A stretch of 64,000 bases of DNA from Terriglobus albidus (GTDB lineage Bacteria; Acidobacteriota; Terriglobia; Terriglobales; Acidobacteriaceae), in contig NZ_JAGTAS010000057.1 in assembly GCF_025685425.1 (NCBI RefSeq), forward strand, positions 372,001 to 436,000, read 5' to 3'. Every line of letters begins with the position of its first letter. The stretch's first letter is position 1. The notes below the pieces were generated by a model. That model searched no databases and was not told the DNA's origin. It saw only the letters and a program-made list of their open reading frames with translations. A program made the position numbers and the translations under genes. Shown here in pieces: positions 25,386 through 48,950 of this stretch.

Positions 25386-25442
25386 GGTCCGAAAGTAGGA
25401 CCGATCAGAAACTCAAACAATTGTCTTTTGTGAAAAGACAGG
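25386..25442 (-). promoter_or_regulatory. Late promoter element 1 (leaderless)
   Basis: Relative to the ATG A at 25385 as +1: palindrome TGTCTTTTCACAAAAGACA centred at -46, TTGTTT at -35 to -30, a 17-bp spacer, TACTTT at -12 to -7. The palindrome starts 3 bp after the upstream stop. It also contains a GGTCC/GGACC hairpin just before the ATG. See findings. Confidence 0.75.
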
Positions 25443-25445
25443 AGC

Positions 25446-27884
25446 TCATTGGAAGAACGGCGTCTTGATTACCTGAACCTTCCAGGTGGCCGCCGGGTAT
25501 ACCAGAGCACCTGCGGTGTAGTTCTGAATCCGGATCTTCACAATGCCATTCTGAGATACATAGCCCTGTGCCTGGACACCAATTAGCGGTTGGCTACTAG
25601 AGACAAGTACGAAGTCGCCGACAGTAGCGATCGGGACAGAGATGCCGACTGCAGGGTCCGAACCACCTGGGAAATCAAAACCAGAACCGGCGCCAGTCGC
25701 ATCCATTGAGAGGCTTCCCTGGCTCACGCTTCCCTGTTTGGCCCGCTGCGAAATCGTTTGGGGATTGTTCGTGGTCGACAAGTTCGGGTTGGCCGTATCG
25801 CCTGTCGAGTACGTCACGAGGCCAGACTTCGAGGACGGACAGTAATTGCCCTCCATCGTAACGGAGTCTGTGCCCTCGAAGGCTGCGCAGTAGTTCTGCG
25901 TCTTGGTCGTCTGATCATCCCAGAGCGTGGTGTTTTTTATGGAGGAGTAGCGAACTCCATTGCCGGTATTCTTCGCGAAACGGATTGCGCTGAGATCGCC
26001 GGTTGTTCCGACCTGGACGTTGTCGTAGTACATGCCGCCGTCGATCTGCAGGTAGTCGGTATCCTCCGCCGAGATTCCGTCCATCTGGTTGTGATGAGCT
26101 GTCCCGCCGAAGATCTTCACGCCTTTACTCTGCGTCACAAAGAACCCTGTACCGTTGTACTGAGATGTGGCACCTGTGATGGTCACATTGAGACTCTTAT
26201 CGGCCATGAAGCCTTTACCGCTTACGTGCTCCATGACATCCGCGCTGCTCGTTATGTCGGCCGGCTGCGGGTCTGAGTCCGAGCCAGTGACCTGCTGCGC
26301 CACCCAGCCGTTGTTAGTTCCGTTGCCATAGTTGCCAGAGCTCGTAAGACCAGTGGTCCCGCGGAAGTAGTACGCCGTGGAGCTGCCAGGCGTATCGGCC
26401 AACACCCGGTTGTTGCACAGCGTTACCGAGTTGGCACGGCTGATCTCAATCCCGATATCGCCTGCGTTGTGGATCTTGTTTCCACAAACCTTCACATCCG
26501 ACATCGCATAGCCAGTGTCACCCCAAACGAAAATGCCATTCTGTGTTGCCGTGATCTCGATCGTGTTGTCTTCGATGTCACAGCCGCGGCTGGCGCCGTC
26601 ATAGCTCTCGCACTTGATTGCATTGGCATGGGTGCTCGTCAGCGTGTGGCCTTTGGCTTTGAAGTTGGTACAGGCATAGCACCTGATTCCTTCCCCGGCG
26701 TTGATGACCTTGAAATTGCTGGTATTCAGGTTCGTGGCGCCGTGGCCATAGACGACGGCCACGTTAGCCGACTGTCCATTACCGTCGAGAGTTCCTTCTC
26801 CGGTGATAGTGACATTGGAAACACCCGTGACCTGGAAGAGGCCTGCAAGAGACGAGTAGGTTCCACTCTTCAACTTCACCATTCCATCGACCCGGATGGT
26901 GTGAGCGGTTGAAACATCTACCGGCCCCATATAGACCGTCTTCCCGGCCGGGAACTGCACTCGGAGGTAACTGCTACTGCTGACCAATGCTTGCACGGCC
27001 CCTGTATCATCCGTGGTTCCGTCACACGCCGCCGTAGCGCAGACATCGACGTAGTCGAATACCTGGCACCCGGTCGAGCCTACAACGCATCCAGGGTCTC
27101 CCTTATCCCCTTTCGGACCTGCCACCGTGGTCGTAGATACGAACTGCAGGTTCTGCGCTGGGTTGTAGTCGCACCAATTGAACGTGGCTCCGGTGACCGG
27201 CACTTTGCGGTAGGTGGTTACCTGCTTAGTCTTGTTATTCGTGATGACGACGCGATAGACGATCCTGGGCGAACCGGCTAGGCCGTCTCCCACCCTCAGA
27301 CTTGCCAGCTGCCCGTTGACGATCGCCCGGGTGACCTCTTCATTCACCGCCTGAATTGCGCCGCTGCCGCCGGCGCGGAACGGTACGGGGTTGTCATTGC
27401 CATCTGTGGCGCGGATAGAGAACTTACCAGACTGCATCACCGATCCGGACCCGTCAGCGATGCATGGCAGCGTCGTTGCCACATCGGTCATCGTCTGGCC
27501 ATGCGCCATCCCGGGCAACAGCATCAGGGCAACAAACAGCAGACCTACGATAGTCTTCGACGACAATACGCCCTCCTCCACAACAGCAGGTTTCCCGGTG
27601 GCGGACTGTGAGTCAAGGACTGCCTTGTGGTTCTGGGCCTTAGCTGCGAATCCGAAGAGCATACTTGCAAGACCTGTGATACCAGCCCACGTCTGAAGAT
27701 CAGGCCAATGCCCGAGCCAGATTTGCCGCGCAACCGATGCGACGAGGGCGAGGAATGCAACGCTTACCACCTCTGCTGTACGCAGGAACACCCACTTAGT
27801 GGAACTGGCACCGCCTTGGATGGCAAGACTCTTGAACACCTGCCACAGCTTCGTATTCTGCACCTGAGAAAGTATCTCGTTCAT
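25446..27884 (-). CDS. Tail spike (beta-helix) fused to an N-terminal membrane domain
   Basis: 812 residues. Residues 1-105 have two hydrophobic segments (VVSVAFLALVASVARQIWLG; WAGITGLASMLFGFAA) like a small holin. At about residue 108 a GGAGGAGG sequence precedes an in-frame TTG starting LSSKTIVGLLFVALMLLPGM then AHGQT, a second signal peptide. After that comes a collagen-like GPKGDKGDPG and a pectate-lyase-type right-handed beta-helix (ITGEGTLDGNG; DIEDNTIEI; VKVCGNKIHNAGDIGIEI; FFVTQSKGVKIFGGTAHHN) and a C-terminal domain ending KIRIQNYTAGALVYPAATWK. Probably a polysaccharide-degrading spike; two products may be made from one frame. Confidence 0.8.
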   Translation of the reverse strand: MNEILSQVQNTKLWQVFKSLAIQGGASSTKWVFLRTAEVVSVAFLALVASVARQIWLGHWPDLQTWAGITGLASMLFGFAAKAQNHKAVLDSQSATGKPAVVEEGVLSSKTIVGLLFVALMLLPGMAHGQTMTDVATTLPCIADGSGSVMQSGKFSIRATDGNDNPVPFRAGGSGAIQAVNEEVTRAIVNGQLASLRVGDGLAGSPRIVYRVVITNNKTKQVTTYRKVPVTGATFNWCDYNPAQNLQFVSTTTVAGPKGDKGDPGCVVGSTGCQVFDYVDVCATAACDGTTDDTGAVQALVSSSSYLRVQFPAGKTVYMGPVDVSTAHTIRVDGMVKLKSGTYSSLAGLFQVTGVSNVTITGEGTLDGNGQSANVAVVYGHGATNLNTSNFKVINAGEGIRCYACTNFKAKGHTLTSTHANAIKCESYDGASRGCDIEDNTIEITATQNGIFVWGDTGYAMSDVKVCGNKIHNAGDIGIEISRANSVTLCNNRVLADTPGSSTAYYFRGTTGLTSSGNYGNGTNNGWVAQQVTGSDSDPQPADITSSADVMEHVSGKGFMADKSLNVTITGATSQYNGTGFFVTQSKGVKIFGGTAHHNQMDGISAEDTDYLQIDGGMYYDNVQVGTTGDLSAIRFAKNTGNGVRYSSIKNTTLWDDQTTKTQNYCAAFEGTDSVTMEGNYCPSSKSGLVTYSTGDTANPNLSTTNNPQTISQRAKQGSVSQGSLSMDATGAGSGFDFPGGSDPAVGISVPIATVGDFVLVSSSQPLIGVQAQGYVSQNGIVKIRIQNYTAGALVYPAATWKVQVIKTPFFQ

Positions 27885-28435
27885 TGGACTGTAGGCCTTT
27901 CAATGAGCTTTAGGACTTTATTGCACCGATTCAGCCATCCGTTCTTCCACTTCAATTGGGTGGGATCTGAAACGGTGATGCCGATGAGGAACTGCCGATT
28001 ACGTTCGACATAGAGCGGGAGTAGCTTCGAAGGCGAAGCCGCATTCAGCGCCGCCAGCGTCTTGGGTCCCATGGAGCCATCGGTTTTCAACATAGAACCG
28101 AGTTCGTTCAGAGACTCCTGTAAGCGCATGATCGCTGGCGGGCAGTTCTCCAGGATGGAAAATGAGAGCATCGCGCACGCCATAACGTCGGACCAGACCT
28201 TGTCGAGCATGATCGGCTCCGCGTATTCCTTGCGGTAAACCTCGATCGCCGTCCCTAGAGCTTCATCACGATGGCACTGATAGAAGCCGGCCCTCACCAG
28301 ATCTGGGTGATACTTCGCCGAAATACCGAACCGGGTCATTCCGCCCTTGTCAGCATTTGCTTTGGTGACGATGCCCGAGAGCTTTTCGTCTTCCTGTTTC
28401 AGAACAAATTCGATTGCGGCCTGGACGTTTGCCAT
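27881..28435 (-). CDS. GH108-type endolysin (N-acetylmuramidase)
   Basis: 184 residues from ATG 28435, which overlaps the preceding stop (TGATG). AIEFVLKQEDEKLSGIV, then NADKGGMTRFGISAKYHPDL matches the GH108 (ZliS/YbiX) active region, with the catalytic Glu in LKQEDE, though the usual EGG motif is altered. The second part (LQESLNELGSMLKTDGSMGPKTLAAL) is a peptidoglycan-binding helical bundle. It cleaves glycan strands for lysis. It lies between the coiled-coil/holin-like protein and the beta-helix spike, overlapping the latter's ATG by 4 bp. Confidence 0.8.
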   Translation of the reverse strand: MANVQAAIEFVLKQEDEKLSGIVTKANADKGGMTRFGISAKYHPDLVRAGFYQCHRDEALGTAIEVYRKEYAEPIMLDKVWSDVMACAMLSFSILENCPPAIMRLQESLNELGSMLKTDGSMGPKTLAALNAASPSKLLPLYVERNRQFLIGITVSDPTQLKWKNGWLNRCNKVLKLIERPTVQ

Positions 28436-28830
28436 CAGTGACCTTTCACGAGTGGCCACACTTTGTCCAGGACGAGCAGAAGTGTTGCGCCGCCGGCTAT
28501 AAGCTGCCAGCGAAACTGCTTCAACTGCTCCACCTGGCTGCGGATCTCACCAATCCATCCCTGATTGCCTTCCGACCCGTCGCCCGCCACAAACCGCAGC
28601 AGCGTTGATTCAGTCTCGACGCGTTGCTTCAACTCGACGTGCTCAGCTTCGCGCTTTGTCAAAAGTGCCATCAGCTCATCGCGCTGGGCTTTCATCTCGC
28701 GGGTTACAGCCTCGCGGTCCTTTGCGCGGTCGTCCAGGTTCTCGCGGTGCATACGAAGCAAGAGCCCGATAAGGTCTCTTATGCTCTTCACATCATCCGC
28801 AGATATCTCAGTGAGAGGCGTGTCAGCCAT
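28435..28830 (-). CDS. Coiled-coil protein with C-terminal membrane segment, XhlA/holin-like
   Basis: 131 residues. Charged coiled coil over residues 15-105 (LRMHRENLDDRAKDREAVTREM; REAEHVELKQRVETEST), then one hydrophobic helix near residues 108-126 (WQLIAGGATLLLVLDKVW). XhlA-type haemolysin/holin accessory proteins share this layout. Directly upstream of the endolysin, it is likely part of the lysis cassette. No Shine-Dalgarno; it follows late promoter element 2, and its ATG lies inside an 11-bp hairpin. Confidence 0.65.
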   Translation of the reverse strand: MADTPLTEISADDVKSIRDLIGLLLRMHRENLDDRAKDREAVTREMKAQRDELMALLTKREAEHVELKQRVETESTLLRFVAGDGSEGNQGWIGEIRSQVEQLKQFRWQLIAGGATLLLVLDKVWPLVKGH

Positions 28831-28887
28831 GAGCCGAAGTTAGGGCTCATGGCTGGCTCAAACAATTGTCTTTTGTGAAAAGACAGG
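28831..28887 (-). promoter_or_regulatory. Late promoter element 2 (leaderless)
   Basis: Same plan as element 1: palindrome centred at -46, TTGTTT at -35, 17-bp spacer, TAACTT at -12 to -7, +1 at the ATG of the holin-like gene. It starts 3 bp after the gpJ stop. An 11-bp inverted repeat (28825-28835 with 28844-28854) encloses the start codon. Confidence 0.75.
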
Positions 28888-28889
28888 CT

Positions 28890-31800
28890 TTATGGACCTA
28901 CCGGCGGCTCATCCCATGAGACTGGGACAGTCGGATCAGATACGGCTCCCGAATAGGTGCGGGCTCGGACCCGGAAGTATGTGGTGGTACCAGGCTGAAC
29001 ATTCGTCATCCATTGCAGTGCTCCGCCCACGCCAAAATAGCTATAGTCTTCGTCAGTCGGCGCGGGATCGCCGGTTGTCGTGGTGTAAATTCCGACCTCG
29101 TATGTGACATCGGCCTGAGGCACAGGAGACCACTGGATACCGGCAGATTGATATCCAGTGACTATGGAGACTCCGGTGGGCGTATCAGGTGCCAGCGTTG
29201 CCAGAGCCGTCGTATGGTCAGCGCTCGTCCAGGGGCTAGCAGCCCCTGATGCTGCAACGGCTCGAGCCTCAATCTGATAGTCCTTTGCGCGCGCTACATC
29301 AGGGATCGTCGTGCTCCGCTCTCCGTACGGCAAAGTGATCAGCGTCCATGGCCCTACCGGGTCCGCTTGACGGTAACGAATCTCGATATGGTCAACGGTT
29401 GTATGTCCTGTCGATCGGGTTCCAGACCATGGACCGTAGACAGCAATCATCATTACTGGTTTCGTGATGCCGCCATCGTCATAAGGCGACAATGCCTGCG
29501 AGGATGTGGCCGTTACATCGCTGGGAGCCGCCGGCGGTTCGTCCCACGGCTGTCCATTGATCTGTGAAGTCCACGACGGTACCACTCCAGCGGCAGCTGT
29601 GCGTACCGCCGGCGCATCGTCCCGAAGCGTCAGCACGGCCGTAAGCTCCTGTCCCGGCTCAATCTTCACCACCTGCAGATCGAGCACCATGCTACCCATG
29701 ACACCGAAGATCACCAGGTCCCCGGTTGCGATTCCAGCGATAGGCCCATCGGTCAACTGGAAGTAGTTCGTCCTCTCTCCAAAGTTGGTAAACGTGACCC
29801 GCTTTGTGACCTGCGAGCCATCACTGTGACGGATGGTGACGCCGTAGTCGTTTCCGTCCTCCGGCGTCACCTGCACATCCACGCTGAAACCCGCAGCTAT
29901 GGGATTCTCGACGGCCGGGTCGACATAGTCGGCGTCCAGAACTCGGCCATAGGCCTTTCCCACCTTGATAACGTCGCTGGCATAACCGACGCGGTCTCCA
30001 CGATTGCAGACCAGGTACTCCGGATCCACATTGAGCGTATATGTGGTTGGCCTCAGACGGGCATCCGCGAGATGGTACCGCCCGAGCCGCCACGCCTGGT
30101 CAGCATCGGTGCATCCCCGGATCTGCAACGTCTCGAAGTTGGTGGCAAGAATGAGCGTAGGATCGGCGGCGACCATCAGGGCATCTCCATAGCCGTCGTC
30201 GTAAACGATTCGCTCATCCTGTGCCCAGTCCGCCTCTGGATTGATGAATTGCACCCGTAGTGCATGGACGGCATCGGTAAAGGTACGCGAGAACTTGAAG
30301 CCCCACGAGTTCCGAGGCGTAAACACCTGGCCACGGGTCGACTGGTCGATGTCTCGCACAACGGAGTATTTCCCGTCGCGGGTATTGAAGGCGCCGCGGC
30401 CGGCGGCAAGGATGTCTTTCGCCAGTGCCAACATCGTCGTCGGCTGGTCGATAACACTATTGAAGCCGAAGCCAGCGGCATCGCATTCCGCGCCAAAGGC
30501 CTTGATGAACTCGTCATCGATTCTGGAGTCGGGCACCTTCTTCTTTGTCGCCGGGCAATCGCGCATAATCCACCGATAGAGCCATGCGGGGTTGCTGGAT
30601 ACCTGTGTATCCCATGCGCTGGCCTCAGGGTTCCATACCGGTATGGGCTGCGAAACGATGCAGGAAAACTGGTTGATCGTGCCGTTGAGCTGATCGTTCG
30701 CCTTGATCCGGAGTGCCAGCTTCTTCGTACCAGTCGTGGATACCCTGCCAGAGCGGATGGCCCGCACTACTGTCCAAGTAAGGTCACCGACACGCGCATC
30801 TGCATCAGCACCGCCCCAATTGGTATCCACGCGGGTCACACGGAAGTCATACTGCCCAATCGGATGTTTCCAGCGCACACCGATGCGCACCGCCTTGCGT
30901 GCGGCATTGGTGACATGGATCGTACCGTCGACATTCGCCACTGCCGCAGAGCTACTGAGTGTGAGTCCGGTTGTCGACGGGCCTACGGTGTTCCACGAGC
31001 TACCGCCATGCAGGGTGTACTCAATCTTCACGCGGCATGTGGTGCTCAACACGTTGCCGGTGCTATCCAGGCCAAACAGGCCGCTAGCGAAGGCAAGGTC
31101 GAGAGAGCTCTCAACGGCTCCGGTCGGCCCGCCACGGGTTGCAGTGTTGCCGTCCGTATTGAGAGTAACTCCGAGGGATGTCTCTTCTACGTCAGCCGGA
31201 AACAATGACGGGTTCTCGCCAATCTCTGTCTCAACGTCGGTGTAATCGGCAAGATCGGTATTGCCGATCTTCATATCCGAAGGGATCGGGTCTCCCTGGC
31301 CGAGGTCGAATAACACCCGGAGATACTGATCATCGCCGCTGAGCTCCGTGAAAGGCTTTGAAGCGTATGGCGGGAACATCTTCACGGTCCCCAAAACCAC
31401 AGGGATGGAGCCGAAAGGGTTCAACTGGTTCTGAGTGCCGGTGATGGACTTCAGCAGGTCTGTAGACTCACCAGATGTCCCGGCGCCGGGATTCTGGGGC
31501 GGTATCAGGGCGTTGAAGGTCAGCATGCCGAGGACACCAATGCCTCCAGCTACTGCGAATGCTGCTGTCGGTGAGAGTGTTATCCCGCCCAACAGTGCTG
31601 GCAGCGTCACACCCGACAAAGCACTCGCCAACACCGGAACCGCTATGGCAAGCGCCGCAAACGCGACCAATCGAAAGATCGTCTTCGCGGATCCGCCTTC
31701 CGGGAAACGCGTGATGACCACAGCAACCTTTGGCGTGGGTCGCACGTTTGCCCACATCTCCTCAGGAATCACAATGCCGCCGATCTCCACCCGGCACGCC

Positions 31801-31937
31801 CGGGCATTTGGACCGACCATCTCCCTGATCGTGGATCCCTGAGGGAAATAGCATTCATAGGTGTCCATCTTCATGACGTGCGGTCGCGCTTTCACCAGGA
31901 CCTGCGACTTCGGCATCTCAATCAGTTCAGCGGGCAT
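28890..31937 (-). CDS. Tail tip/host-specificity protein, gpJ-like
   Basis: 1015 residues. Contains two hydrophobic segments near residues 85-140, a central lambda gpJ-like region (SDMKIGNTDLADYTDVETEIG; DCPATKKKVPDSRIDDEFIKAFGAECDAAG; FGFNSVIDQPTTMLALAKDILAAGRGAFNTRDGKYS), and fibronectin III modules at the C-terminus (PSDVTATSSQALSPYDD; APDTPTGVSIVTGYQSAGIQWSPVPQADVTYEV). It forms the central tail tip that contacts the host. Overlaps the NlpC/P60 gene by 11 bp. It is the last gene of the tape-measure unit. Confidence 0.88.
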   Translation of the reverse strand: MPAELIEMPKSQVLVKARPHVMKMDTYECYFPQGSTIREMVGPNARACRVEIGGIVIPEEMWANVRPTPKVAVVITRFPEGGSAKTIFRLVAFAALAIAVPVLASALSGVTLPALLGGITLSPTAAFAVAGGIGVLGMLTFNALIPPQNPGAGTSGESTDLLKSITGTQNQLNPFGSIPVVLGTVKMFPPYASKPFTELSGDDQYLRVLFDLGQGDPIPSDMKIGNTDLADYTDVETEIGENPSLFPADVEETSLGVTLNTDGNTATRGGPTGAVESSLDLAFASGLFGLDSTGNVLSTTCRVKIEYTLHGGSSWNTVGPSTTGLTLSSSAAVANVDGTIHVTNAARKAVRIGVRWKHPIGQYDFRVTRVDTNWGGADADARVGDLTWTVVRAIRSGRVSTTGTKKLALRIKANDQLNGTINQFSCIVSQPIPVWNPEASAWDTQVSSNPAWLYRWIMRDCPATKKKVPDSRIDDEFIKAFGAECDAAGFGFNSVIDQPTTMLALAKDILAAGRGAFNTRDGKYSVVRDIDQSTRGQVFTPRNSWGFKFSRTFTDAVHALRVQFINPEADWAQDERIVYDDGYGDALMVAADPTLILATNFETLQIRGCTDADQAWRLGRYHLADARLRPTTYTLNVDPEYLVCNRGDRVGYASDVIKVGKAYGRVLDADYVDPAVENPIAAGFSVDVQVTPEDGNDYGVTIRHSDGSQVTKRVTFTNFGERTNYFQLTDGPIAGIATGDLVIFGVMGSMVLDLQVVKIEPGQELTAVLTLRDDAPAVRTAAAGVVPSWTSQINGQPWDEPPAAPSDVTATSSQALSPYDDGGITKPVMMIAVYGPWSGTRSTGHTTVDHIEIRYRQADPVGPWTLITLPYGERSTTIPDVARAKDYQIEARAVAASGAASPWTSADHTTALATLAPDTPTGVSIVTGYQSAGIQWSPVPQADVTYEVGIYTTTTGDPAPTDEDYSYFGVGGALQWMTNVQPGTTTYFRVRARTYSGAVSDPTVPVSWDEPPVGP

Positions 31938-32334
31938 AGCGGTAGTACCCCTCTATCCGGTTTCGCCATGTCAGGCTGTCCAACCGCTCACGGCAGGCAT
32001 TCGTTCCGGCGACAATGTGCAGCATGTCGATCTCTGAGACCATGACTCCGCAGTGCCATGGCTTTCCTGCCAAGCGCAGAATCACGAGGTCCCCAGCCTG
32101 CGGCTTCTCAACTTGGTTCCAGCCGTCCAACAAGCCCTTCTCGATCGCGGCGGCAACGGACTCTTTGTCGAAGGCGGAAGAGTAGGCGCCGACGTAGTCG
32201 GGAAGTCCGAGGACGGAGAACTCCAGCGCCAACACTTCGCGCACCAGACCCCAGCAGTCATAGCCAGGGCCGCGGCCCTTCTCCTGGAATGGCTTGCCGA
32301 CGTACTCATCCACCCATGCTGGAATCTGGATCAT
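31927..32334 (-). CDS. NlpC/P60 tail assembly protein, gpK-like
   Basis: 135 residues. Catalytic Cys in GPGYDCWGLVREVL and His in PWHCGVMVSEID, followed by HIVAGTNA: the NlpC/P60 triad layout of lambda gpK C-terminal domains. Probably a peptidoglycan endopeptidase at the tail tip that helps DNA entry. Its ATG overlaps the preceding stop by 4 bp. Confidence 0.9.
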   Translation of the reverse strand: MIQIPAWVDEYVGKPFQEKGRGPGYDCWGLVREVLALEFSVLGLPDYVGAYSSAFDKESVAAAIEKGLLDGWNQVEKPQAGDLVILRLAGKPWHCGVMVSEIDMLHIVAGTNACRERLDSLTWRNRIEGYYRYAR

Positions 32335-32816
32335 GCGAAGATCCCTGGGGAATTGCTGGGCGTGTACTGCACTGCGGGGAAAGATGCATTGAGGAAGTCA
32401 TCATCGAACCCCAGCGTGGCGGTGACCTGCGAAGCATCCGCGTCTGCCTGCAAGATCTTGAAGTCAATAGGGCCGACCTCTACCGTGTCCGGCTGCGATG
32501 CGAGGACGATCTCAACCTTGGCATTGACGCGCTCGCCAGCCGGAAGCGTGCGGATGGCATTCAGGATCTCAGTGTCGACGGCGTCGATTGTCTGCTGTAC
32601 TTGCGGGGCAGAGTCGTCTTGCTCTGCGGGCAGATTCAGTTGAAATGCGAAAGGCTGGAACTCGCCGGCAGCCCGCTGGATGCATTCGTTGTTCATCACC
32701 AGGCGGTAGTCATCCTCAAACGAGGAATGACTCAACGTCTCGCACATCAGGTAGACCTCTTCAGTCTCCTCCGCAAGCATCGACTGAAGCGCACGCGGGC
32801 TTAGGTTACGGCTCAT
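32331..32816 (-). CDS. Minor tail protein, DUF1833/gpL-like
   Basis: 161 residues from ATG 32816 (ATGA overlap with the previous gene). LVMNNECIQRAAGEFQPFAFQLNLPAEQDD and the DAVDTEILNAIRTLPAGERVNAKVEIVLASQPDTVEVGPIDFKI core fit the DUF1833 tail family, which occupies the gpL position between gpM and gpK genes. A longer frame to 32885 exists without support. Confidence 0.75.
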   Translation of the reverse strand: MSRNLSPRALQSMLAEETEEVYLMCETLSHSSFEDDYRLVMNNECIQRAAGEFQPFAFQLNLPAEQDDSAPQVQQTIDAVDTEILNAIRTLPAGERVNAKVEIVLASQPDTVEVGPIDFKILQADADASQVTATLGFDDDFLNASFPAVQYTPSNSPGIFA

Positions 32817-33214
32817 ACGGTCTTCATCTCCATCTGGATGGTTACCGTCCACCACTCCACGCCAGACTGGTCCGTTCCCTTCCACTTCTGCGTAATCGAG
32901 GCCATACCTTCAGGGAGCCGGTAGATTGCATCCTGTGTGTCAGTGGCTGGCCTCCGGAAGTCTGTCCAGAGGAACGGCTTCACATCGCAGATCTCGTCAG
33001 AGACGAACTGGTCCAGGCGATCGCGCTGTGCGCTGGTGATGTCGATAGGTCCGACCGTCACGTCATAGATACGGCCAGTGAAGCGCCGACGCCGCTTCGC
33101 GGGACCTGCTTCCTGGGCCGTGCTAATGACGTTGCTCTGAGGCTTATACTCTGGCGGCGTGTCACCGAAAGGTACCTGTGGGAGTTCCTCCGGCCAGCGT
33201 GGATAGTCAGGCAT
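32813..33214 (-). CDS. Minor tail protein, gpM-like
   Basis: 133 residues. FTGRIYDVTVGPIDITSAQRDRLDQFVSDEICDVKPFLWTDFRRP and the C-terminal WKGTDQSGVEWWTVTIQMEM match phage minor tail proteins next to gpL/K. Starts 3 bp after the tape measure stop. Assignment rests on synteny and a general similarity. Confidence 0.65.
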   Translation of the reverse strand: MPDYPRWPEELPQVPFGDTPPEYKPQSNVISTAQEAGPAKRRRRFTGRIYDVTVGPIDITSAQRDRLDQFVSDEICDVKPFLWTDFRRPATDTQDAIYRLPEGMASITQKWKGTDQSGVEWWTVTIQMEMKTV

Positions 33215-33217
33215 TGC

Positions 33218-40176: not shown

Positions 40177-40182
40177 TTGGGG

Positions 40183-41133: not shown

Positions 41134-41165
41134 ACTTTGTCGAGACCTCTCTTGTTGAAGTGCTT

Positions 41166-41181: not shown

Positions 41182-41191
41182 GCGCCGTTGT

Positions 41192-41563
41192 TTATCCCTG
41201 CATTACGCTGGGAGCAACCTGAATGGGCCACACGTCGCCGGCTACACCGGCAAAATGGGCAAAGCCGATAAGGCGAACATTGCTGCCTACCGCCGGAGCC
41301 GCGGTGACAGCTGCCCCGTTGGCATCGCTTGTGAGTGGATCTCCGGCGGCAATCGTCCCGCCATAGGTGACGGGAGCATAGCCAGCGACAACAACGTCGT
41401 AACGGTCGCCACTGACAACATCGAGGTTGTCACTGACGCCAACGATCTTGTCTGTGGCTGCGGAAGCAAGGACGGCTTCACCGTTATTGGTACCCGGCTT
41501 CACGATCCTGTACTTTCCGACCGACGCTGTTGCCGTCTTGGGAATCATCGTGTTTTGGTTCAT
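41192..41563 (-). CDS. Head decoration / capsid cement protein (DUF2190-like)
   Basis: 123 residues. TATASVGKYRIVKPGTNNGEAVLASAATDKIVGVSDNLDVVSGDRYDVVVAGYAPVTYGGTIAAGDPLTSDANGAAVTA is the typical beta-rich cement-protein pattern with a repeated Gly/Asp turn. GGAG precedes the ATG. Sits directly before the major capsid gene as in lambda (gpD-gpE order). Confidence 0.82.
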   Translation of the reverse strand: MNQNTMIPKTATASVGKYRIVKPGTNNGEAVLASAATDKIVGVSDNLDVVSGDRYDVVVAGYAPVTYGGTIAAGDPLTSDANGAAVTAAPAVGSNVRLIGFAHFAGVAGDVWPIQVAPSVMQG

Positions 41564-41606
41564 TTCTGCTTCTCCAAATCGTGATTTTTACTGCTGTACT
41601 GCCGGG

Positions 41607-43043
41607 TTACTTCTGCTTCGAGACATGCTCGACAGCCTCAGAAAGGCTGATCTTGTTACCTGCCTTGGCCTGCTCGGCCTGGTAGGCAGAGGCTTTGTCC
41701 GCCAGAACCTGCGGATCCTTTGCGTCGGCATTCTCGGGAGTACTGGGCTGTTCCGGAGCCGGAGCGGTGACCGTGGGAACGACGGCGCCAGGTGCAGGCG
41801 TGGGAGCGTCGTTATGCATGTCCTCACCAGCCTTCTTACGGGCTTCACGCTCCGCGGCATTGACCTTGATGGCGGCCTCGCCGGCGGATGTCTGGCCGTC
41901 GAACATAAGGGTCTGAATCAATGTCTGGTGGCCAGGAAGAGCCTGCTCAGAGACACCCTTGATACGAGCAAGTTCGGCTGCCGCGCCATTCTTTGTTCCT
42001 TCAGCCACGCCAGCGGCATGACCTTCCTCGCGTGCCGTCTTTACGGCCGCGTCATACTGCTCCTGCGTGTATTGCATTGCAGCTTCTCCTGTGTTGAGAG
42101 TTTCGGAGGCCGAAGCCGCCGTATTGCTTACCTTCTGCACCTTGCCGTCGTTCAGCATGGTGATCACCTGATCGAGCGTGGCGATGCCATCGGCGAGACC
42201 AGCGTCAATGGCTTTCTGGCCCATGAACACCCGGCCATCAGCCATATCGGTCAGTACCTGATCCGAGCTAACGCCGCGGCCATCGGCAACGTTGTCCACG
42301 AACACGCTGTAGACGTGGTCAACGCCTTCCTTGATGTAATCCGTGCCTTCCTGGGTGAGTGGCCCAGTATCAGAGGCAATGCGTTTGTACTTGCCAGCGG
42401 TGATCTCGGTCCGCTTTACGCCCCGCTGCTGGTCAGCACCGCTGCGGTCCACATGTTGGTAGACCACACCGATCGATCCCACGGTCGTCGTGTCGTCGGC
42501 TAGATAGATGACGCTCGTTTGCGAGGCAAGCCAGTAGGCTGCGGATGCGCCGAGGCCTGTAACCCAGGCGGCGGACGGCTTTTTTTCCGCCGCCGCCTGA
42601 ATCACATTCGCGGCCAACTGCGTTCCATCAACATCGCCTCCGGGCGAGTCGACGACGTAGCAGATCGCAGTCACAGCTGAGTCATTCACCGCGGCAATGA
42701 CATCTTTCTGAAGATCCTCGGTGCTTGTACCGCCCGAGAACCACATAAAGATGTCCATCCGCTTACCGAGGACGCCTTCGATAGCGATAAGCGCCACGCC
42801 ATCGCGAATCACATAACCCGCTCCGCCGGTCTCATCTGCAGTACGGCGTGTGATGTTCGCGCCAGCCGCAAAGAAACGTGTCGGTAGGTCCTCCGCTTCT
42901 GACCCGAACTCCGCTTTGAGAGACGAGGCATCGATCTTGACGCCAGCCTGATGACGGTCCCAGACATCGCAGATCTGCGTAAGCTTCCATGGCGTCAGCG
43001 CCAGCGGCTTCTCATACGGGCTGAAAATGCGGACTTTACCCAT
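41607..43043 (-). CDS. S49-type prohead protease with scaffold C-terminus (gpC/Nu3-like)
   Basis: 478 residues. Residues about 80-310 are an SppA/S49 protease: DSPGGDVDGTQLA, catalytic Ser167 in GLGASAAYW, GSIGVVYQHVDRS and the dyad Lys near 218 (ITAGKYKRI). Residues about 320-478 are charged and coiled-coil/Pro-Ala rich (scaffold). An internal ATG (MQYTQEQYDAAVK) with GGAGAAGC upstream could yield a Nu3-like scaffold product. Its ATG overlaps the portal stop by one base. Confidence 0.9.
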   Translation of the reverse strand: MGKVRIFSPYEKPLALTPWKLTQICDVWDRHQAGVKIDASSLKAEFGSEAEDLPTRFFAAGANITRRTADETGGAGYVIRDGVALIAIEGVLGKRMDIFMWFSGGTSTEDLQKDVIAAVNDSAVTAICYVVDSPGGDVDGTQLAANVIQAAAEKKPSAAWVTGLGASAAYWLASQTSVIYLADDTTTVGSIGVVYQHVDRSGADQQRGVKRTEITAGKYKRIASDTGPLTQEGTDYIKEGVDHVYSVFVDNVADGRGVSSDQVLTDMADGRVFMGQKAIDAGLADGIATLDQVITMLNDGKVQKVSNTAASASETLNTGEAAMQYTQEQYDAAVKTAREEGHAAGVAEGTKNGAAAELARIKGVSEQALPGHQTLIQTLMFDGQTSAGEAAIKVNAAEREARKKAGEDMHNDAPTPAPGAVVPTVTAPAPEQPSTPENADAKDPQVLADKASAYQAEQAKAGNKISLSEAVEHVSKQK

Positions 43044-44698
43044 TACGCGGCCTCCGGAGCTTCGTTATCAGGAGCGTCAGGATTGGGCTCCGGCTTCGTT
43101 GTCGGCGGATTTACGGCTTCGGTAGCTGTCGCGTTCGCGATAGCAGGCTCGAGACCAGCCTCCACCCGCATTGCATGCTCCCGACGCCGCTGATTGTGAA
43201 GCTCAAGCCAAGAAACACCTTCCAGCTTCATTGCTTCGCGTTCGATCGTCGAGAATCCCTCGCTAACCTTTAGCTTCGAAGCCTCAGTTTCCTTGACCGG
43301 ATCAATCTGACCAGGAGCATCACCGACGCACTCGCAACGCTGATAGGCCTTGCGGATACGCGCATCGGTGAAATAGCCGGGTGCCGAAATCACGCCCAGA
43401 GCGACCGCTTCATCAAGCCACGTCTCATAGACTGGCTCGCAGAAATTGGTGGCGAGAAAGTTGCGGAAGTCCTTTACGAGCTTCCAGAACTCCAGCAGTG
43501 CGGCGCGAGCCGCGGAATATGAAGCTGTAAAGTGCTTGATGAGCACTTCATAGGGGATGCCGAGACGCATTCCGATCTGCCGAAGGATGGCCAGAACGAA
43601 GGGATCGAATGCAGCGTTCGGCCGCATCGCATTCGGGAACGACACCTTCTCTCCAGGAGCGAGGACATTGATCAGGCCGGCACCAAGCTCGATGTCGTTG
43701 GCTTTGCCCGGCTTCGAGGGCTCACTTACCTGGTGCTGCGGGGCCTCACTCTCAATGAAGACCGTATACATCGAGGTCACAACCGCGGCCATAATTTCGG
43801 CATCGGTATAGCGACCCAGCTGCTTCAGCAACTCAACGATCGTCGCCAGATATGGAACCCCCCGCTTCTGATCCGGCCTCTCGCGGTTGAAAAGATGGAG
43901 AACGGTACGACGGCCGGTACGGGTTCCGAATGCCGCATATCGCTTCCATTTGTTCCGATTTCCTGTATAGCCAAGGGCGCCGGGGTGCTCGTCGTAAATG
44001 ATGTACGCCACCGGAGCGCCATTGGCATCACACTCGACTCCGCCGAAGATGGGGCTGCTCTCGGTGGCAGTGGAATCCGCCGATGCTTGATAGCTGACAG
44101 GAACGCCTTCACCGTTGGGCGAGTCGACGCGGTCAGCCTCAATAATCTGGATACGAGTCTTATAGAGGCCGCCGGGGACCGCGACGGAGGGTAAAAGAAT
44201 GAAGGTGTCACCGCTTTCAAGCGTTGACCGCATTGCCAACTTCTGTTGCTGGTAGAAGTTCTCGGTTCGCGTAATATCGCAATCCTTCGAACCCGCCCAG
44301 AGCTCAAATTCGCGGCTGGTCTTCTCTGCCCAGGTAGAGGCCTCATCCTCGTTCATGCCCAGAGCTTTGAAATCAGGCTTCGGGTGGACCGATAGTCCGG
44401 TACCGACTACGTCACGAACGAGATTGTCGATTGCACCGCCGGCGATCGCGTTATTGCGACGAAGATCCCGGCAACGGACACGCAGAATGTGAAGGTCGTG
44501 CAATGTATCGGCGTCGGCTGATCCGTTCGCCACATACCAGTCACGAATGGCGCGACGATCATAGCGGGCTCCGGTATAGGCGCCCGATAGAGCAAGATGC
44601 CGGCGATACTGCCATCGCTTTAGACCAGCTGCAGGATTCAAGATGGTAATGAACTTGTCGAGCAGATTCGGCTCGACCCTGGCGATGTTCTTAGCCAC
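43043..44698 (-). CDS. Portal protein, lambda gpB-like
   Basis: 551 residues. YTGARYDRRAIRDWYVANGSADADTL, LRRNNAIAGGAIDNLVRDVVGTGLSVHPKPD, KLAMRSTLESGDTFILLP, and the late AARAALLEFWKLVKDFRNFLATNFCEPVYETWLDEAV are typical gpB segments. Forms the dodecameric portal at one vertex. The C-terminal tail is acidic and Pro-rich. Overlaps the gpW-like gene by 8 bp. Confidence 0.92.
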   Translation of the reverse strand: MAKNIARVEPNLLDKFITILNPAAGLKRWQYRRHLALSGAYTGARYDRRAIRDWYVANGSADADTLHDLHILRVRCRDLRRNNAIAGGAIDNLVRDVVGTGLSVHPKPDFKALGMNEDEASTWAEKTSREFELWAGSKDCDITRTENFYQQQKLAMRSTLESGDTFILLPSVAVPGGLYKTRIQIIEADRVDSPNGEGVPVSYQASADSTATESSPIFGGVECDANGAPVAYIIYDEHPGALGYTGNRNKWKRYAAFGTRTGRRTVLHLFNRERPDQKRGVPYLATIVELLKQLGRYTDAEIMAAVVTSMYTVFIESEAPQHQVSEPSKPGKANDIELGAGLINVLAPGEKVSFPNAMRPNAAFDPFVLAILRQIGMRLGIPYEVLIKHFTASYSAARAALLEFWKLVKDFRNFLATNFCEPVYETWLDEAVALGVISAPGYFTDARIRKAYQRCECVGDAPGQIDPVKETEASKLKVSEGFSTIEREAMKLEGVSWLELHNQRRREHAMRVEAGLEPAIANATATEAVNPPTTKPEPNPDAPDNEAPEAA

Positions 44699-44921
44699 AC
44701 GGCACCGCCCGGAAGGTCTGGATGCCCACCCTGCTGAGCTCTTTTACTTTGCGATCCCAGAACAAAACATCAGCGTTGGCATCCGCCAATGTACGGTAGA
44801 TAGTCTTCCGACCTCCCGTAGTACTGGAAACTTGGGTTTCCTGCACGCCGGTGAGCTCTGCCCGCCCTGCCAAAGCAGCATCGAGCTGAGCCTGAGCCTG
44901 TTCGAGAGTGATTCCGGCCAT
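44691..44921 (-). CDS. gpW-like head-tail joining protein (DUF6148)
   Basis: 76 residues. MAGITLEQAQAQLDAALAGRAEL, then YRTLADANADVLFWDRKVKEL matches the short gpW/DUF6148 proteins encoded between terminase and portal. No Shine-Dalgarno; it is the first gene after late promoter element 4 and heads the capsid unit. Confidence 0.8.
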   Translation of the reverse strand: MAGITLEQAQAQLDAALAGRAELTGVQETQVSSTTGGRKTIYRTLADANADVLFWDRKVKELSRVGIQTFRAVPCG

Positions 44922-44978
44922 GACGCGAAGTTATGGCCGCGTCGAAATCCAAACAATTGTCTTTTGTGAAAAGACAGG
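44922..44978 (-). promoter_or_regulatory. Late promoter element 4 (leaderless)
   Basis: Palindrome TGTCTTTTCACAAAAGACA at -46, TTGTTT at -35, 17-bp spacer, TAACTT at -12 to -7, +1 at the gpW-like ATG. It begins 3 bp after the terminase stop. GGCCAT upstream of the -10 can pair with ATGGCC at the start codon. Confidence 0.75.
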
Positions 44979-44981
44979 GGT

Positions 44982-46979
44982 CTAGACCTGTACTGCAGAC
45001 GAACGAACAACGCGGCGCGATGCGACGGGGACGATGCTGGCCGGTACCGCTCCACCCTCACAAACTTTGGCATGAAGTGCTAGGAGGTCACCATAAGTGG
45101 TGGGGTCGATGATCGTCTGCAAGGCAACGCGGGCGGCGTGGGCATATACCTCCATATCAAGTACTTCGTTCCGTTCATAGTTGAGGGCCCAGACAAAACG
45201 TGACTTCCGTGTCCTCTTGTCATAAATGCGCACCTTGCACTCGGAAGTCAGTTGCTTGAAGAACTCCTCCGTGCAATCCATCGGAAAGTGCATGTAGTTG
45301 GCGCCCGGCCGATTCACCTGCAGGCGGGACATGATGCGCTCCTTCGCGGCGTGAGTGCCTACCCGGAACAACCGCATCTTGTGCTTCTTTCCTATGCTCT
45401 CATCAACCAGTCCTGGACGGCTCAGGAAGTCCACACCTTTACAGGCATAGACGCGATTGCGGTTGTCTTGCCGCGGCATGACGTAGGCAGCGACAGCATC
45501 CGAATAGGCGCCGCTATCGACAAACGTAACTACCGGCCGGAGCTCAGCGCCCGATGCGTGCTTCCAGGAACGAAGTCGAAAGGCATCGAGATCCTCCCAT
45601 ACGTTCACCACATCCTCATTCTCGGCATCCTCCGGTTTCAGGCCCGGGGCACCCCAGAAGATCTCGTGTGCAATGTGCCACTCTTCTACGTCATTGCCGG
45701 TCATACCGGCGTTACCTGTTGACGTCGCCGGGCCGAAGCCGGTGACCTTGGCCTCGATGCGATTCTTCTGCACGTCGACTGTGCAGACAATAAAGGCCAC
45801 GCCCATCGGAACCTGTATGCCCTTGCCGTCCGGATCGTACTGTTCACGCCTGGCTAATAGCCCGTCCGGCTCAATGGTGTCGATGGCTTCCTCGAAAGGA
45901 AGCCCCAAACGTAGGTTCCAGAATGCCCGAAGCTTATCCGGCACACCTTGGGCATCGATCCACTCAGCGACAAGATTGTGCCAGAGGTCCTTCCAGGGGC
46001 TGTAGATTGCGTTGATGTAAAAGCCGCGGTGGGTAGTTCTCTCGGGGTACTTTGGAATCCATCGACCACCCCGGAGAATGGCCTGCTTCTGGTGCTCTTT
46101 GATACCCACCTTGCAGTTACGGCAGTGGAACTGTACGGATTCTTTGATAGGCTTCCCATTCTTATCGAGTTCCCATGAGAAGTTTGACTGCTTCGTGTCC
46201 GGATCCAACCAGAGCAGAGGCTGCTCTTCCCCGCAATACGGGCAGGGGACATAAAACATCGACTGATCTGACGCCTCATATGACTTCGCAGCTGGGGAAA
46301 GCTTAGCCGGCAGCGCAGGGGTGGACCCAATAACCACCTGGCAGCGTTCGAAGGTATCGAGGCGCCGTTCGGCAATATCGAAGAAACTACCTTCCTTGTT
46401 GACCTGGTCGTATCCGTCCACCTCGTCAAACAGCTGCAACTCGACCGGGTCAGAACGCATGTTGCCGGCATTCGCGCCGGCGATCTTCAGGAAGCCGCCG
46501 AAGAACTGCTTCAGGAGTTGGGTGTTTCCTCCCTTCCGGGATAGATTCTTGAAGACCTTCGAAGCCAGGGACTTGCAGGCGTCGATCATCGGCTGAATCG
46601 TCTTCTTAGACTTGTCCTTTGCGTCACTATCGCGAGGGAGGACGTACATCATCGGACCAGGCTTGGTGTCGATCTTCCAGCCGATGATGTTGAGCATGAT
46701 CTCGGTCCAACCGACCTGCGTGCTCTTCAGGCAGCTAACCTTCTCCACGTCGTCATCACAGATGGCATCCATGATCCCTCGCTGGAAGGAATGAGCCTCA
46801 TAAGGTCCAGGCCTCGCCGTCGTGCCCTTCGGCAGGATGCGGTTAGCTTCGGCCCATTGCGACACGAGCATCTTCTTCGCTGGCCGGAAGAGTGCGCCGA
46901 TCTCGGCATCAACGGCTGCGAGGTTTTCTTCGAGCGTCGCTATCGTTTGCTCGGTCTCGGATTGAAGCTGGGATTCCAT
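44982..46979 (-). CDS. Terminase large subunit (gpA family)
   Basis: 665 residues. Entry WAEANRILPKGTTARPGPYEAHSFQRGIMDAI, Walker A-like SCLKSTQVGWTE, Walker B LQLFDEVDGYD near residue 170, zinc-type CPYCGEEQ and CRNCKVG, nuclease-domain acidics (VCTVDVQKNRIE; VTFVDSGAYSDAV) and GVDFLSRPGLVD. Packages DNA from cos with the Nu1-like partner; the two genes overlap by about 70 bp. No separate promoter, so it is read from upstream. Confidence 0.95.
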   Translation of the reverse strand: MESQLQSETEQTIATLEENLAAVDAEIGALFRPAKKMLVSQWAEANRILPKGTTARPGPYEAHSFQRGIMDAICDDDVEKVSCLKSTQVGWTEIMLNIIGWKIDTKPGPMMYVLPRDSDAKDKSKKTIQPMIDACKSLASKVFKNLSRKGGNTQLLKQFFGGFLKIAGANAGNMRSDPVELQLFDEVDGYDQVNKEGSFFDIAERRLDTFERCQVVIGSTPALPAKLSPAAKSYEASDQSMFYVPCPYCGEEQPLLWLDPDTKQSNFSWELDKNGKPIKESVQFHCRNCKVGIKEHQKQAILRGGRWIPKYPERTTHRGFYINAIYSPWKDLWHNLVAEWIDAQGVPDKLRAFWNLRLGLPFEEAIDTIEPDGLLARREQYDPDGKGIQVPMGVAFIVCTVDVQKNRIEAKVTGFGPATSTGNAGMTGNDVEEWHIAHEIFWGAPGLKPEDAENEDVVNVWEDLDAFRLRSWKHASGAELRPVVTFVDSGAYSDAVAAYVMPRQDNRNRVYACKGVDFLSRPGLVDESIGKKHKMRLFRVGTHAAKERIMSRLQVNRPGANYMHFPMDCTEEFFKQLTSECKVRIYDKRTRKSRFVWALNYERNEVLDMEVYAHAARVALQTIIDPTTYGDLLALHAKVCEGGAVPASIVPVASRRVVRSSAVQV

Positions 46980-47493
46980 CGGCTATGTCCGTGAGCGCCT
47001 TGTCGATCTCACCCTCAAGGATCTGGCGCATCCGCTTCCGCGGCTCTCCCTCGAGTTTGTCGGGGAGTTTCGTGGGGAGCGCGGCGAGACGTTGCGTGAC
47101 CACGGAAGCCCAGGTTGTGAGTTTTTCCCGGTATAGCGAGAGCGGTACAGTCTGTCCGCGTCGCTCCGCGAGATCCATCTCGGCCTGATCGGCTTGTGCG
47201 GCTGTAAGGCGGGCACGCTCATCCGATAGATTGCGAGGCTTTCCATCAGTTCCCTCTGTTTGCTTTCGCTGAACCGATGGGCGGAGCCGGCCAAGGTACC
47301 AGTGCATGCAGACGATTGGGTCGTATTGCCCTCGGGCAGCTTTCGGCATACCTTCGGCGACGAGTTGAGAGATTCGCATCTCGCTGAGCGGGGGTTGATC
47401 CTGACCAGCAAGCAGCCAACACAGATCTCGTACAGAAACGAGCTTCGGCGCATCCTTTTTCTCACCCTTAGCGCTCCTCTTTTTGGCCGCCAT
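46909..47493 (-). CDS. Terminase small subunit, Nu1-like
   Basis: 194 residues. LVSVRDLCWLLAGQDQPPLSEMRISQLVAEGMPKAARGQYDPIVCMHWYLGRLR is the Nu1 helix-turn-helix plus wing that reads cosB; the second half is a coiled coil (SDERARLTAAQADQAEMDLAERRGQ) for contact with the large subunit. Its 3' end overlaps the large-subunit gene. Confidence 0.85.
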   Translation of the reverse strand: MAAKKRSAKGEKKDAPKLVSVRDLCWLLAGQDQPPLSEMRISQLVAEGMPKAARGQYDPIVCMHWYLGRLRPSVQRKQTEGTDGKPRNLSDERARLTAAQADQAEMDLAERRGQTVPLSLYREKLTTWASVVTQRLAALPTKLPDKLEGEPRKRMRQILEGEIDKALTDIADGIPASIRDRANDSDARRKPRSR

Positions 47494-47706
47494 GGCGCCG
47501 TTCCGATCCGTGTTTTGCTGACTTTTCCATCATTCACAACTCGCGAAACTAAACTAAAGCCTCACTTTTTTGGTTCTCGTCTAGACGTATGTCGGGGTTC
47601 GAATTACCCGAAATCGAGCGGTCGCCGGAAGGACCCCCGATTATTAGGCAAGGCGCCCGTCCACGGACACGTCTGTCCATGGACACCTTCTCTATTGGCG
47701 AGGTGC
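47494..47706. other. Candidate cos region
   Basis: 213 bp without a convincing gene, immediately upstream of the Nu1-like gene, where lambda has cos. GTCCACGGAC at 47659-47668 and the perfect palindrome GTCCATGGAC at 47675-47684 form paired near-identical sites. These are plausible terminase-binding or nicking elements; nothing proves it. Confidence 0.4.
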
Positions 47707-48147
47707 TCATACGCTCACCTCATATCGAAGCTTGTCCTGCAACGGTGCTGTATCCACTCGCGGGCGTGATGGGCAACTCCATGATCTACCTGTCACCTGA
47801 CCTACGAGCTTCCACCCAGATGCTGTGAGTGTTGTGCCAGGCTCACAGGCATAGATATAGGTGATCAGCCTGCGATAGCCCATTGCTCTGGCAGCACGCC
47901 ATGCAGCCGCATATAGCTTTGAGCATGCATTCTTAGTACCGTCCGTGGCTAAGCGCGTGACCTCAAGAGTGAATCCGTCCTGCAACGCTCTTGCGTTTGG
48001 CCTGCCGACGATAGCAACGCCAATCACCTTTCCATCACACTCCGCCGCAATGCTGAACTTGTGACCGACGCGTGGTCCATGATGGCGATGATGTTGTGAG
48101 ACAAACGCATTCGCCTCAGCCAATTCGCAGGGAACAATGGTGATCAC
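47707..48147 (-). CDS. XF1762-type acetyltransferase-like phage protein
   Basis: 146 residues. ANAFVSQHHRHHGPRVGHKFSIAAECDGKVIGVAIVGRPNARAL, then EVTRLATDGTKNACSKLYAAAWRAARAMGYRRLITYI matches the XF1762/GNAT-like proteins often encoded next to phage terminase. Acetyltransferase fold is likely; substrate unknown. Its ATG overlaps the upstream stop by 4 bp. Confidence 0.8.
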   Translation of the reverse strand: MITIVPCELAEANAFVSQHHRHHGPRVGHKFSIAAECDGKVIGVAIVGRPNARALQDGFTLEVTRLATDGTKNACSKLYAAAWRAARAMGYRRLITYIYACEPGTTLTASGWKLVGQVTGRSWSCPSRPRVDTAPLQDKLRYEVSV

Positions 48148-48893
48148 TGGCCACCACCGAGCGACGGACTAAGGATCAGCATGTCACGCATCGCCTCATT
48201 CAGTAGGCGTGCGAAGTTGGCCTGATAGACCTCGCGTGCGATCTGGCCGAATGGTAGGCGCACCTTATAGTCGGCATGGTCTACAAAGATGAGCAGCGGC
48301 TTGAGCTCACCATCAGCCATGCGCTGCCACACGCCCAAAGGTCCATGCCCACCACCTGGCCGGCCAACGAAGATATCAATCTGCTTTTTATTGCGCTGCA
48401 TCGATCGCGTCGTGCGGTTGGCGTCGTAGCCAGCCTTCCAATGCGAACCAGTCGCGCTCATGATCTGTGTGATCAGCGACGGCTGAATGTTGCCATATCG
48501 ATTGAGTTTGGCGCCTGAGCCTGGCACCCAAAACATCCCGCCGGGCAGGATGCCTTTACGACGGAATGCGATCTCACTAGGCTTGGCGGCACGGCTGCCG
48601 CCTTCCACCTGCGGCAGGAGATAGGTCGATGGCGGCACACCCTTGCTGGCGACACTCTTCAGGTTGACGGTCGCTGTGAGGTTTGTCTTTGTCGCGGCCT
48701 GGAAGTAGGCCGAGTTCATTGTGTATGGGGTCGGCCGATCGAAGCTGACGCCCATCGTTGCCCGGTCAGCCCGGCGAACCAGCACGGCAACACCATTCAG
48801 GGCCTTAGCAGTGGCGGCTGGGAACTTGTCACGTTCCCAGCCTTCCAGAGTCTGCTCAAACCCCTTTGTGTCGGCACTGATCCCAAGCTGCAT
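48144..48893 (-). CDS. Minor tail protein Z-like
   Basis: 249 residues. MQLGISADTKGFEQTLEGWERDKFPAATAKALNGVAVLVRRA and the basic, RNR/KR-rich remainder (FRRKGILPGGMFWVPGSG; TTRSMQRNKKQIDIFVGRPGGGHG) fit gpZ-type minor tail proteins loosely. It is the first gene of the terminase unit; position is unusual for a tail gene. No Shine-Dalgarno. Confidence 0.5.
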   Translation of the reverse strand: MQLGISADTKGFEQTLEGWERDKFPAATAKALNGVAVLVRRADRATMGVSFDRPTPYTMNSAYFQAATKTNLTATVNLKSVASKGVPPSTYLLPQVEGGSRAAKPSEIAFRRKGILPGGMFWVPGSGAKLNRYGNIQPSLITQIMSATGSHWKAGYDANRTTRSMQRNKKQIDIFVGRPGGGHGPLGVWQRMADGELKPLLIFVDHADYKVRLPFGQIAREVYQANFARLLNEAMRDMLILSPSLGGGQ

Positions 48894-48950
48894 GCCGCCA
48901 TACTAGGTAGCGCATCAGCCTGAAACTATTGTCTTTTGTGAAAAGACAGG
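48894..48950 (-). promoter_or_regulatory. Late promoter element 5 (leaderless)
   Basis: Palindrome identical, centred at -46; TAGTTT at -35, 17-bp spacer, TAGTAT at -12 to -7 (the best -10 of the set), +1 at ATG 48893. It begins 1 bp after the upstream stop. This unit reads the terminase genes. Confidence 0.72.

Follow-up and report, generated by a model that had tools for sequence, protein, structure and literature searches.

How are the late genes of a temperate phage, laid out in several units that all read the same way, switched on together, and what keeps them quiet when transcription reaches them from upstream? The 64,000-nt stretch of the Terriglobus albidus genome analysed here (the window) raises this question in a concrete form. 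A 47.4-kb prophage sits in a tRNA-Arg gene of this 6.1-Mb genome, and five of its late genes are each preceded by the same 57-bp element (E1 to E5, Table 1), for which the initial annotation had proposed a palindromic activator site joined to a leaderless start. This remains the best-supported reading of the five units, and on the sequence alone we give it a probability of roughly 60% that the elements are activator-dependent leaderless late promoters of one regulon; the activator, the start sites, the read-through and the effect of the lock described below are parts of the explanation that we infer. More tentatively, and at less than even odds, such a promoter may be combined at the same element with a working translational lock.

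The geometry of the elements is the firmest part of the argument. All five copies of the architecture were recovered on the minus strand where the initial annotation had placed them, and its account of the individual parts held as well. A 23-bp core, CCTGTCTTTTCACAAAAGACAAT, is identical in all five at -57 to -35 (counting the A of the ATG as +1), with a 19-bp palindrome at -55 to -37 centred at -46, and 36 nt separate the palindrome from the ATG in every copy. The -35 region, described as TTGTTT or a variant at -35 to -30, reads TTGTTT in three copies, TTTCCC in the 35848 copy (E3) and TAGTTT in the 48893 copy (E5), and is followed in all five by a 17-bp spacer and TAnnnT at -12 to -7, a pattern whose density on the minus strand of the late region is 0.0044. 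Aligned on the ATG, the copies have a mean pairwise identity of 1.00 at -57 to -37, 0.63 at -36 to -28, 0.25 at -27 to -13, 0.72 at -12 to -5, 0.48 at -4 to -1 and 0.26 in the flank at -100 to -61. The sequence between palindrome and start had been described as unconserved, which is true of -27 to -13 but not of -12 to -5, and from the core to the ATG the bases T-12, A-11, T-7, G-5 and C-1 are invariant in all five; the description also overlooked that -27 to -13 can pair with the beginning of the gene it precedes, an ability that is clear in three copies, weak in one and lacking in one.

The window holds five sites of the palindrome at up to three mismatches, compared with 0.06 expected from shuffled sequence, and the whole genome, at up to two mismatches, holds the five exact palindromes and one two-mismatch site on another contig. 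The stop codon of the upstream open reading frame (ORF) lies 1-16 nt ahead of each element, placing the palindrome 3-18 nt past the stop (at E3 this upstream ORF is a short one of uncertain status). All late units share one orientation. A search of Rfam gave no match at the gathering threshold between 22 and 50 kb of the window.

The three defined bases of TAnnnT are the strongest positions of the sigma-70 -10 box, a G at -5 belongs to the discriminator and a C at -1 precedes a purine start 7 nt past the box. The placement of T-12, A-11, T-7, G-5 and C-1 thus fits a -10 box, a discriminator and a start site on the A of the ATG, and TAnnnT stands at -12 in all five elements. Anti-Shine-Dalgarno energies of the five starts are -1.7 to -3.2 kcal/mol in four cases and -4.8 in the 48893 copy (E5), so that a Shine-Dalgarno sequence, which had been said to be absent from all five genes, is lacking in four and marginal at E5. 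Other late genes do carry such sites, as had also been claimed, with energies of -4 or better at 18 of 25 other late starts; the same holds for 20 of 22 early starts.

Leaderless mRNAs are probably usable in the host, as two lines of evidence suggest. Among 265 host ATG starts, drawn from about 0.79 Mb of the 6.1-Mb genome with a gap of at least 60 nt and gene starts from simple in-house predictions, TAnnnT occurs 13 times at -12 and nine times at -13 against a background of 3.05 (sd 2.2) per position, although seven times at -18 as well. A published prediction places leaderless genes in all three Acidobacteria genomes considered, at a mean of 13.3% (PMC3160421). ADOP permeases are typical of Acidobacteriota, and in keeping with a host of that phylum the genome has 57 matches to this family, 37 of which exceed the cut-off, against none above it in any of 14 control genomes.

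We propose that the 19-bp palindrome would be bound by a dimeric DNA-binding protein, probably encoded by the phage and expressed early, which as activator would bring the sigma-70-type RNA polymerase of the host to a promoter whose -35 is poor (TTGTTT or worse) and whose -10 is minimal (TAnnnT with G-5). With transcription beginning at the A of the ATG, the leading gene of each unit would be translated from a leaderless mRNA; most downstream genes in a unit have Shine-Dalgarno sites. The spacer in addition encodes an RNA arm antisense to the start of its own gene, clearly in three elements and weakly in a fourth. Messages that read in from upstream would contain the arm, which would fold back on the start region, while those begun at the element would lack it, and late-only expression would then be enforced at the level of both transcription and translation. 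That the -35/-10 spacer has been selected as the antisense of the gene start, such that only element-born messages are well translated and at least three units are doubly gated, is a proposal that we put forward with some reserve.

The complementarity itself is pronounced. When the region from -32 to +18 was folded for 54 prophage starts, the three lowest z-scores belonged to E2 (-6.8), E1 (-5.1) and E5 (-2.3), and E4 came sixth (-1.6). Duplex energies between -32 to -13 and -6 to +21 are -28.0 for E1, -26.1 for E2, -21.2 for E5, -14.6 for E4 and -4.5 for E3; the first three values are reached by none of the 49 other prophage starts and by none of 531 host genes, and when five host genes were drawn at random 100,000 times, no draw reached the mean of the five elements. 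Host genes that look leaderless (n = 27) have no such pairing, with a mean of -7.9 versus -8.3 for the 504 others. Since the arm sequences differ from copy to copy, a shared protein site fails to explain them. Going from a transcript that begins at -120 to the leaderless RNA, the AUG changes from 0.00 to 0.69 unpaired at E2, from 0.06 to 0.53 at E4, from 0.35 to 0.86 at E5 and from 0.42 to 0.69 at E3, and control starts go on average from 0.50 to 0.67 once the leader is removed. E2, whose arm is among the two strongest, leads into the unit with the endolysin, which fits a logic of the T4 gene e type.

Several observations weigh against this account. E3 has no arm, its pairing being equalled by 44 of 49 prophage controls and 468 of 531 host genes (z-score -0.3, nineteenth of 54), and the arm of E4 is weak, its energy being reached by four of 49 prophage starts and 29 of 531 host genes. 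At E1 the AUG lies in a loop and is 0.67 unpaired in the long RNA versus 0.18 in the modelled leaderless RNA, the reverse of what a lock would do. A gain in AUG freedom of at least 0.5 on removal of the leader is also found in six of 49 controls. When the arms were swapped among the five elements, the true pairing ranked second of 120 in two folding windows and ninth of 120 in a third, because some arms also fit foreign starts. The lock may moreover be redundant, as a start that lacks a Shine-Dalgarno sequence may be little used in read-through RNA. On the side of the promoter, no activator was found: Ogr_Delta (PF04606) is absent from the whole genome, in a search in which the E. coli control matched. 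The 8-bp stem of the palindrome is followed in three copies by ATTGTTTG (five T in eight), and we infer read-through past it. Finally, a motif-free scan of 132 loci for 11-mers at a fixed distance from at least two ATGs gave, among the matches listed, families of at least three starts in the window only, although many of the loci are short and a relative could be missed.

One alternative keeps the promoter core of our explanation and disputes only the lock and the exact start. The elements would be activated promoters, essentially under late control of the P2 type, and either the spacer complementarity would have no function or the mRNA would start a few bases off the A. The promoter features are present in all five elements while the arm is missing at E3, weak at E4 and leaves the AUG in a loop at E1, and phage P2 offers a precedent with four late promoters that carry TGT-N12-ACA (PMC3931495). 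We nevertheless consider this alternative unlikely, if deserving of serious attention, as the pairing of three arms is stronger than in any of the 531 host genes or 49 prophage starts, and C-1, A+1 and a discriminator of 6 nt agree with transcription starting at the A.

A second alternative, which we regard as improbable, is that there is no promoter at the elements and that they act as a translational switch of the Mu Com/mom type, in which a protein-bound RNA hairpin opens the start mask within a polycistronic late mRNA. The 19-mer hairpin recognised by Mu Com lies by an inhibition structure (PMC6483171), and here, too, a 19-nt hairpin lies just upstream of the start-masking helices; unit 1 includes a Mom-like gene, and two small Cys-containing early proteins are encoded (60686-60904, 63003-63272). 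However, E3 keeps the palindrome, the spacing and the -10-like bases without any masking helix, T-12, A-11, T-7 and G-5 are promoter positions, and such a model has no need of the exact 36-nt spacing. A search for the Com-family zinc ribbon (PF10122) gave no match in the genome, though the control genomes were without a match too.

That the palindromes are instead repressor sites (operators or stoperators) silencing the late genes in the lysogen is very improbable: a protein with a LexA-type DNA-binding domain is encoded at 64078-64632 and the sites, all in the same orientation, occupy short gaps, but beyond the sites given above no further copy was found at up to two mismatches in the genome or three in the window, so that at this level of mismatch the early and integrase regions have none, and a site at -46 above a poor -35 suits activation better. 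Just as little weight falls on the view that they are terminators or RNA-processing hairpins at the ends of units, for although they follow closely on the upstream stop codons, can form an 8-bp hairpin and have the tract mentioned above after them in three copies, the stem has two G-C pairs only and neither a GC-rich stem nor an unbroken U-run is present, and the fixed register with the ATG and the -10 bases would be left unexplained. A terminator scan reported no terminator-like site at the five elements, but its rule of at least three G-C pairs leaves the stem of the palindrome outside the scan. We think that the palindrome is a poor terminator and expect read-through.

The protein that would bind the palindrome had been suspected to lie perhaps beyond 64 kb, and the search, extended past the window end, yielded only weak or uncertain candidates. 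A four-Cys motif scan of the prophage frames found no CX2CX22CX4C. The 145-aa early protein encoded at 61306-61743 is a weak candidate, its predicted winged-helix fold being a low-confidence model (mean pLDDT 57, best Foldseek E-value 0.22), and around its relative in genome G033 there is no convincing register family. The product of the last early gene (52442-52708, 88 aa) is predicted to consist of a pair of short strands and a long helix, with no viral relative confirmed. The early protein with the LexA-type DNA-binding domain (64078-64632, past the window, L009:78-632) has no match to the LexA peptidase.

Related prophages carrying the pattern in fixed register, for which the initial annotation had suggested a search, were not found among the genomes and viral loci searched. 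In viral contigs an exact 20-mer had no match, and the palindrome with any centre gave 23 loci, each with a single site. Across 396 genomes of the phylum, the palindrome followed after 30-42 nt by an ATG was found in T. albidus only, with five in-register sites and a single site on the opposite strand, which we attribute to chance; allowing one mismatch, 61 related genomes yielded T. albidus and three others with one site each. There were no copies of the palindrome at up to two mismatches in 114 loci with relatives of the terminase or capsid (one of the relative searches covering the best 80 of at least 582 matches), and no such sequence stands upstream of relatives of the tape-measure-like and first-unit genes in the 17 upstream regions listed. 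The motif-free scan gave elsewhere, among the matches listed, pairs of 11-12-mers, a pair of 23-mers among tandem repeats in locus L046, and in L056 and L066 one pair each with short palindromes.

Within the genus, 19 genomes held no register element beyond a near copy in the sister species G013, one of the three other genomes just mentioned, CCTGTCTGTTCACAAAAGACA (L011:17935-17953; C6:32934), which has one mismatch in 21 and an ATG exactly 36 nt on. It keeps T-12, A-11 and C-1, has C at -7 and A at -5, and its ATG opens 14 codons only; none of the 111 minus-strand ORFs of the window has a tblastn match on the 41-kb contig of G013 in question. This near copy may be a relic or chance and, being unexplained, is not counted as support. 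Two further genomes, G073 and G065 (L041-L046, L050, L051), contain palindrome-like 14-mers, such as TGCAGACGTTTGCA, TGCAGACGATTGCA and TGCAGACGTCTGCA, every few kb over both of their 80-kb regions. Repeats of the TGCAGACGTTTGCA type were considered as homologous elements and rejected, as they are spread throughout the regions and off register.

The late genes run leftward in the order terminase, portal, protease, scaffold, capsid, tail tube, presumed tape measure, NlpC, gpJ-like, endolysin, beta-helix and SGNH-type ORF (Table 1). Their division into five units by the elements was borne out, except that unit 1 starts with minor-tail-like and Mom-like genes ahead of the terminase. The Mom-like DNA modification gene overlaps the gene led by E5 by 4 nt, and its translation may therefore be coupled to the leaderless start. 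The endolysin gene and the 131-aa gene ahead of it share one base. In unit 2, a strong terminator-like hairpin at 36909-36932 (minus strand), with eight G-C pairs followed by TCTTTTTT, lies between the tail tube and presumed tail chaperone genes and is a possible attenuator of that unit; within the gene at 39546-40103, identical 22-base stems at 39583-39604 and 39763-39784, 180 bp apart, hint at a longer internal repeat. The early genes are mostly leftward as well (52.4-64.6 kb), and a rightward group that includes an SRAP protein, at 49.4-52.4 kb (49423-52440, plus strand), separates the early from the late module, both of which read leftward. On the strand opposite to this group, an ORF at 49547-49822 has a match in a region of G157 (64% over 47 aa).

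Table 1. Elements, late units and other features of the prophage, in window positions (features past the window end are marked; arms and helices are predicted)
Feature	Position	Strand	Details
Element E5, heads late unit 1	48894..48950	-	palindrome 48930-48948; -10 TAGTAT 48900-48905; ATG 48893; masking arm ~48908-48925 pairs with ~48881-48900
Element E4	44922..44978	-	palindrome 44958-44976; -10 TAACTT 44928-44933; ATG 44921; weak masking arm ~44933-44949
Element E3	35849..35905	-	palindrome 35885-35903; -10 TAGCTT 35855-35860; ATG 35848; without masking arm
Element E2, precedes lysis unit	28831..28887	-	palindrome 28867-28885; -10 TAACTT 28837-28842; ATG 28830; 12-bp masking helix, 28844-28855 with 28824-28835
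Element E1	25386..25442	-	palindrome 25422-25440; -10 TACTTT 25392-25397; ATG 25385; 16-bp helix, 25401-25416 with 25366-25381, codons 2-7 paired, AUG in loop
Late unit 1	44982..48893	-	minor-tail-like 48144-48893; Mom-like 47707-48147; small ORFs; terminase large subunit 44982-46979
Late unit 2	36222..44921	-	76-aa gene 44691-44921 (gpW-like label from position only); portal; protease; scaffold; capsid; tail tube; presumed tail chaperone region
Late unit 3	28890..35848	-	presumed tape measure 33218-35848 (label from position and length; no Pfam match) to gpJ-like 28890-31937
Late unit 4	25446..28830	-	131-aa gene 28435-28830; endolysin (GH108/PG_binding_3) 27881-28435; beta-helix protein 25446-27884
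Late unit 5	22675..25385	-	126-aa gene 25005-25385; SGNH/GDSL-type ORF 22675-25095 (GDSL match under the Pfam cut-off)
Prophage part inside window	18704..64000	.	attL in tRNA-Arg, 56-bp repeat 18704-18759
Early gene	61306..61743	-	145 aa; possible winged-helix fold
Integrase (past window end)	64662-66032		
attR (past window end)	66094-66149		second copy of the 56-bp direct repeat, tRNA-Arg end

Leaderless translation in this phylum rests on prediction (PMC3160421), and none of the papers listed in the literature searches names a study of late gene control in its phages. Five identical promoters on one replicon, in exact register with their start codons, offer a ready set of reporters for leaderless starts, for the activator and for the spacer-coded lock. 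If the lock is real, a part of the promoter that is free in sequence would carry gene-specific translational information, giving a compact design in which read-through RNA leaves a gene silent and expression comes from its own promoter only, and a 57-bp cassette with a variable part tailored to the individual gene.

The initial annotation had called the scheme unfamiliar, which was too strong, given the precedents in P2/Ogr, in phiYS40 and in phage transcripts that are often leaderless. Late sites of P2 are centred near -55, whereas here a full palindrome of the form TGT-N13-ACA is centred at -46 from the ATG, the starts look leaderless and the genome encodes no Ogr_Delta. In P2-type phages four late operons are driven via Ogr from TGT-N12-ACA sites (PMC3931495), and the likeness is that every late operon of a temperate phage carries a copy of one dyad-type site, which makes the operons a late regulon; five exact copies of the same dyad precede five units here. 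Most middle and late mRNAs of the Thermus phage phiYS40 are leaderless (review, PMC3594737), and phage transcripts are described elsewhere as frequently leaderless (PMC5312081). The likeness to phiYS40 is in late phage mRNAs without a leader; the accessible text of the review mentions no element in register with a palindrome, and here only the genes leading the units look leaderless.

For the putative lock, the closest relative is gene e of T4, whose longer transcripts form a structure that inhibits the start while transcripts from the late promoter miss its 5' part (PMC3014915). As described for gene e, and also for soc, 49 and I-TevI, a start-masking arm is present in upstream transcripts only and the promoter lies within the arm, and in the prophage as in T4 the lysis unit is concerned, with one of the two strongest arms. 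Pairing of the start with an upstream arm is strong at E1 (with the AUG in the loop), E2 and E5, weak at E4 and absent at E3. T4 late promoters use a phage sigma factor, whereas here the arm is the spacer of a palindrome-linked promoter, the start looks leaderless and the device recurs across one regulon. Com of phage Mu binds a 19-mer hairpin that adjoins a structure which inhibits translation and holds the start codon in its stem (PMC6483171), an arrangement that resembles the 19-nt hairpin beside the start-masking structure here; the loop, however, reads CAC and lacks the Com motif CC(N)2-3GAG, and promoter positions are conserved instead. Among the open-licence papers listed in the literature searches we found none that joins these parts: each is known, from P2/Ogr, phiYS40, T4 gene e or Mu mom, and their combination would be new.

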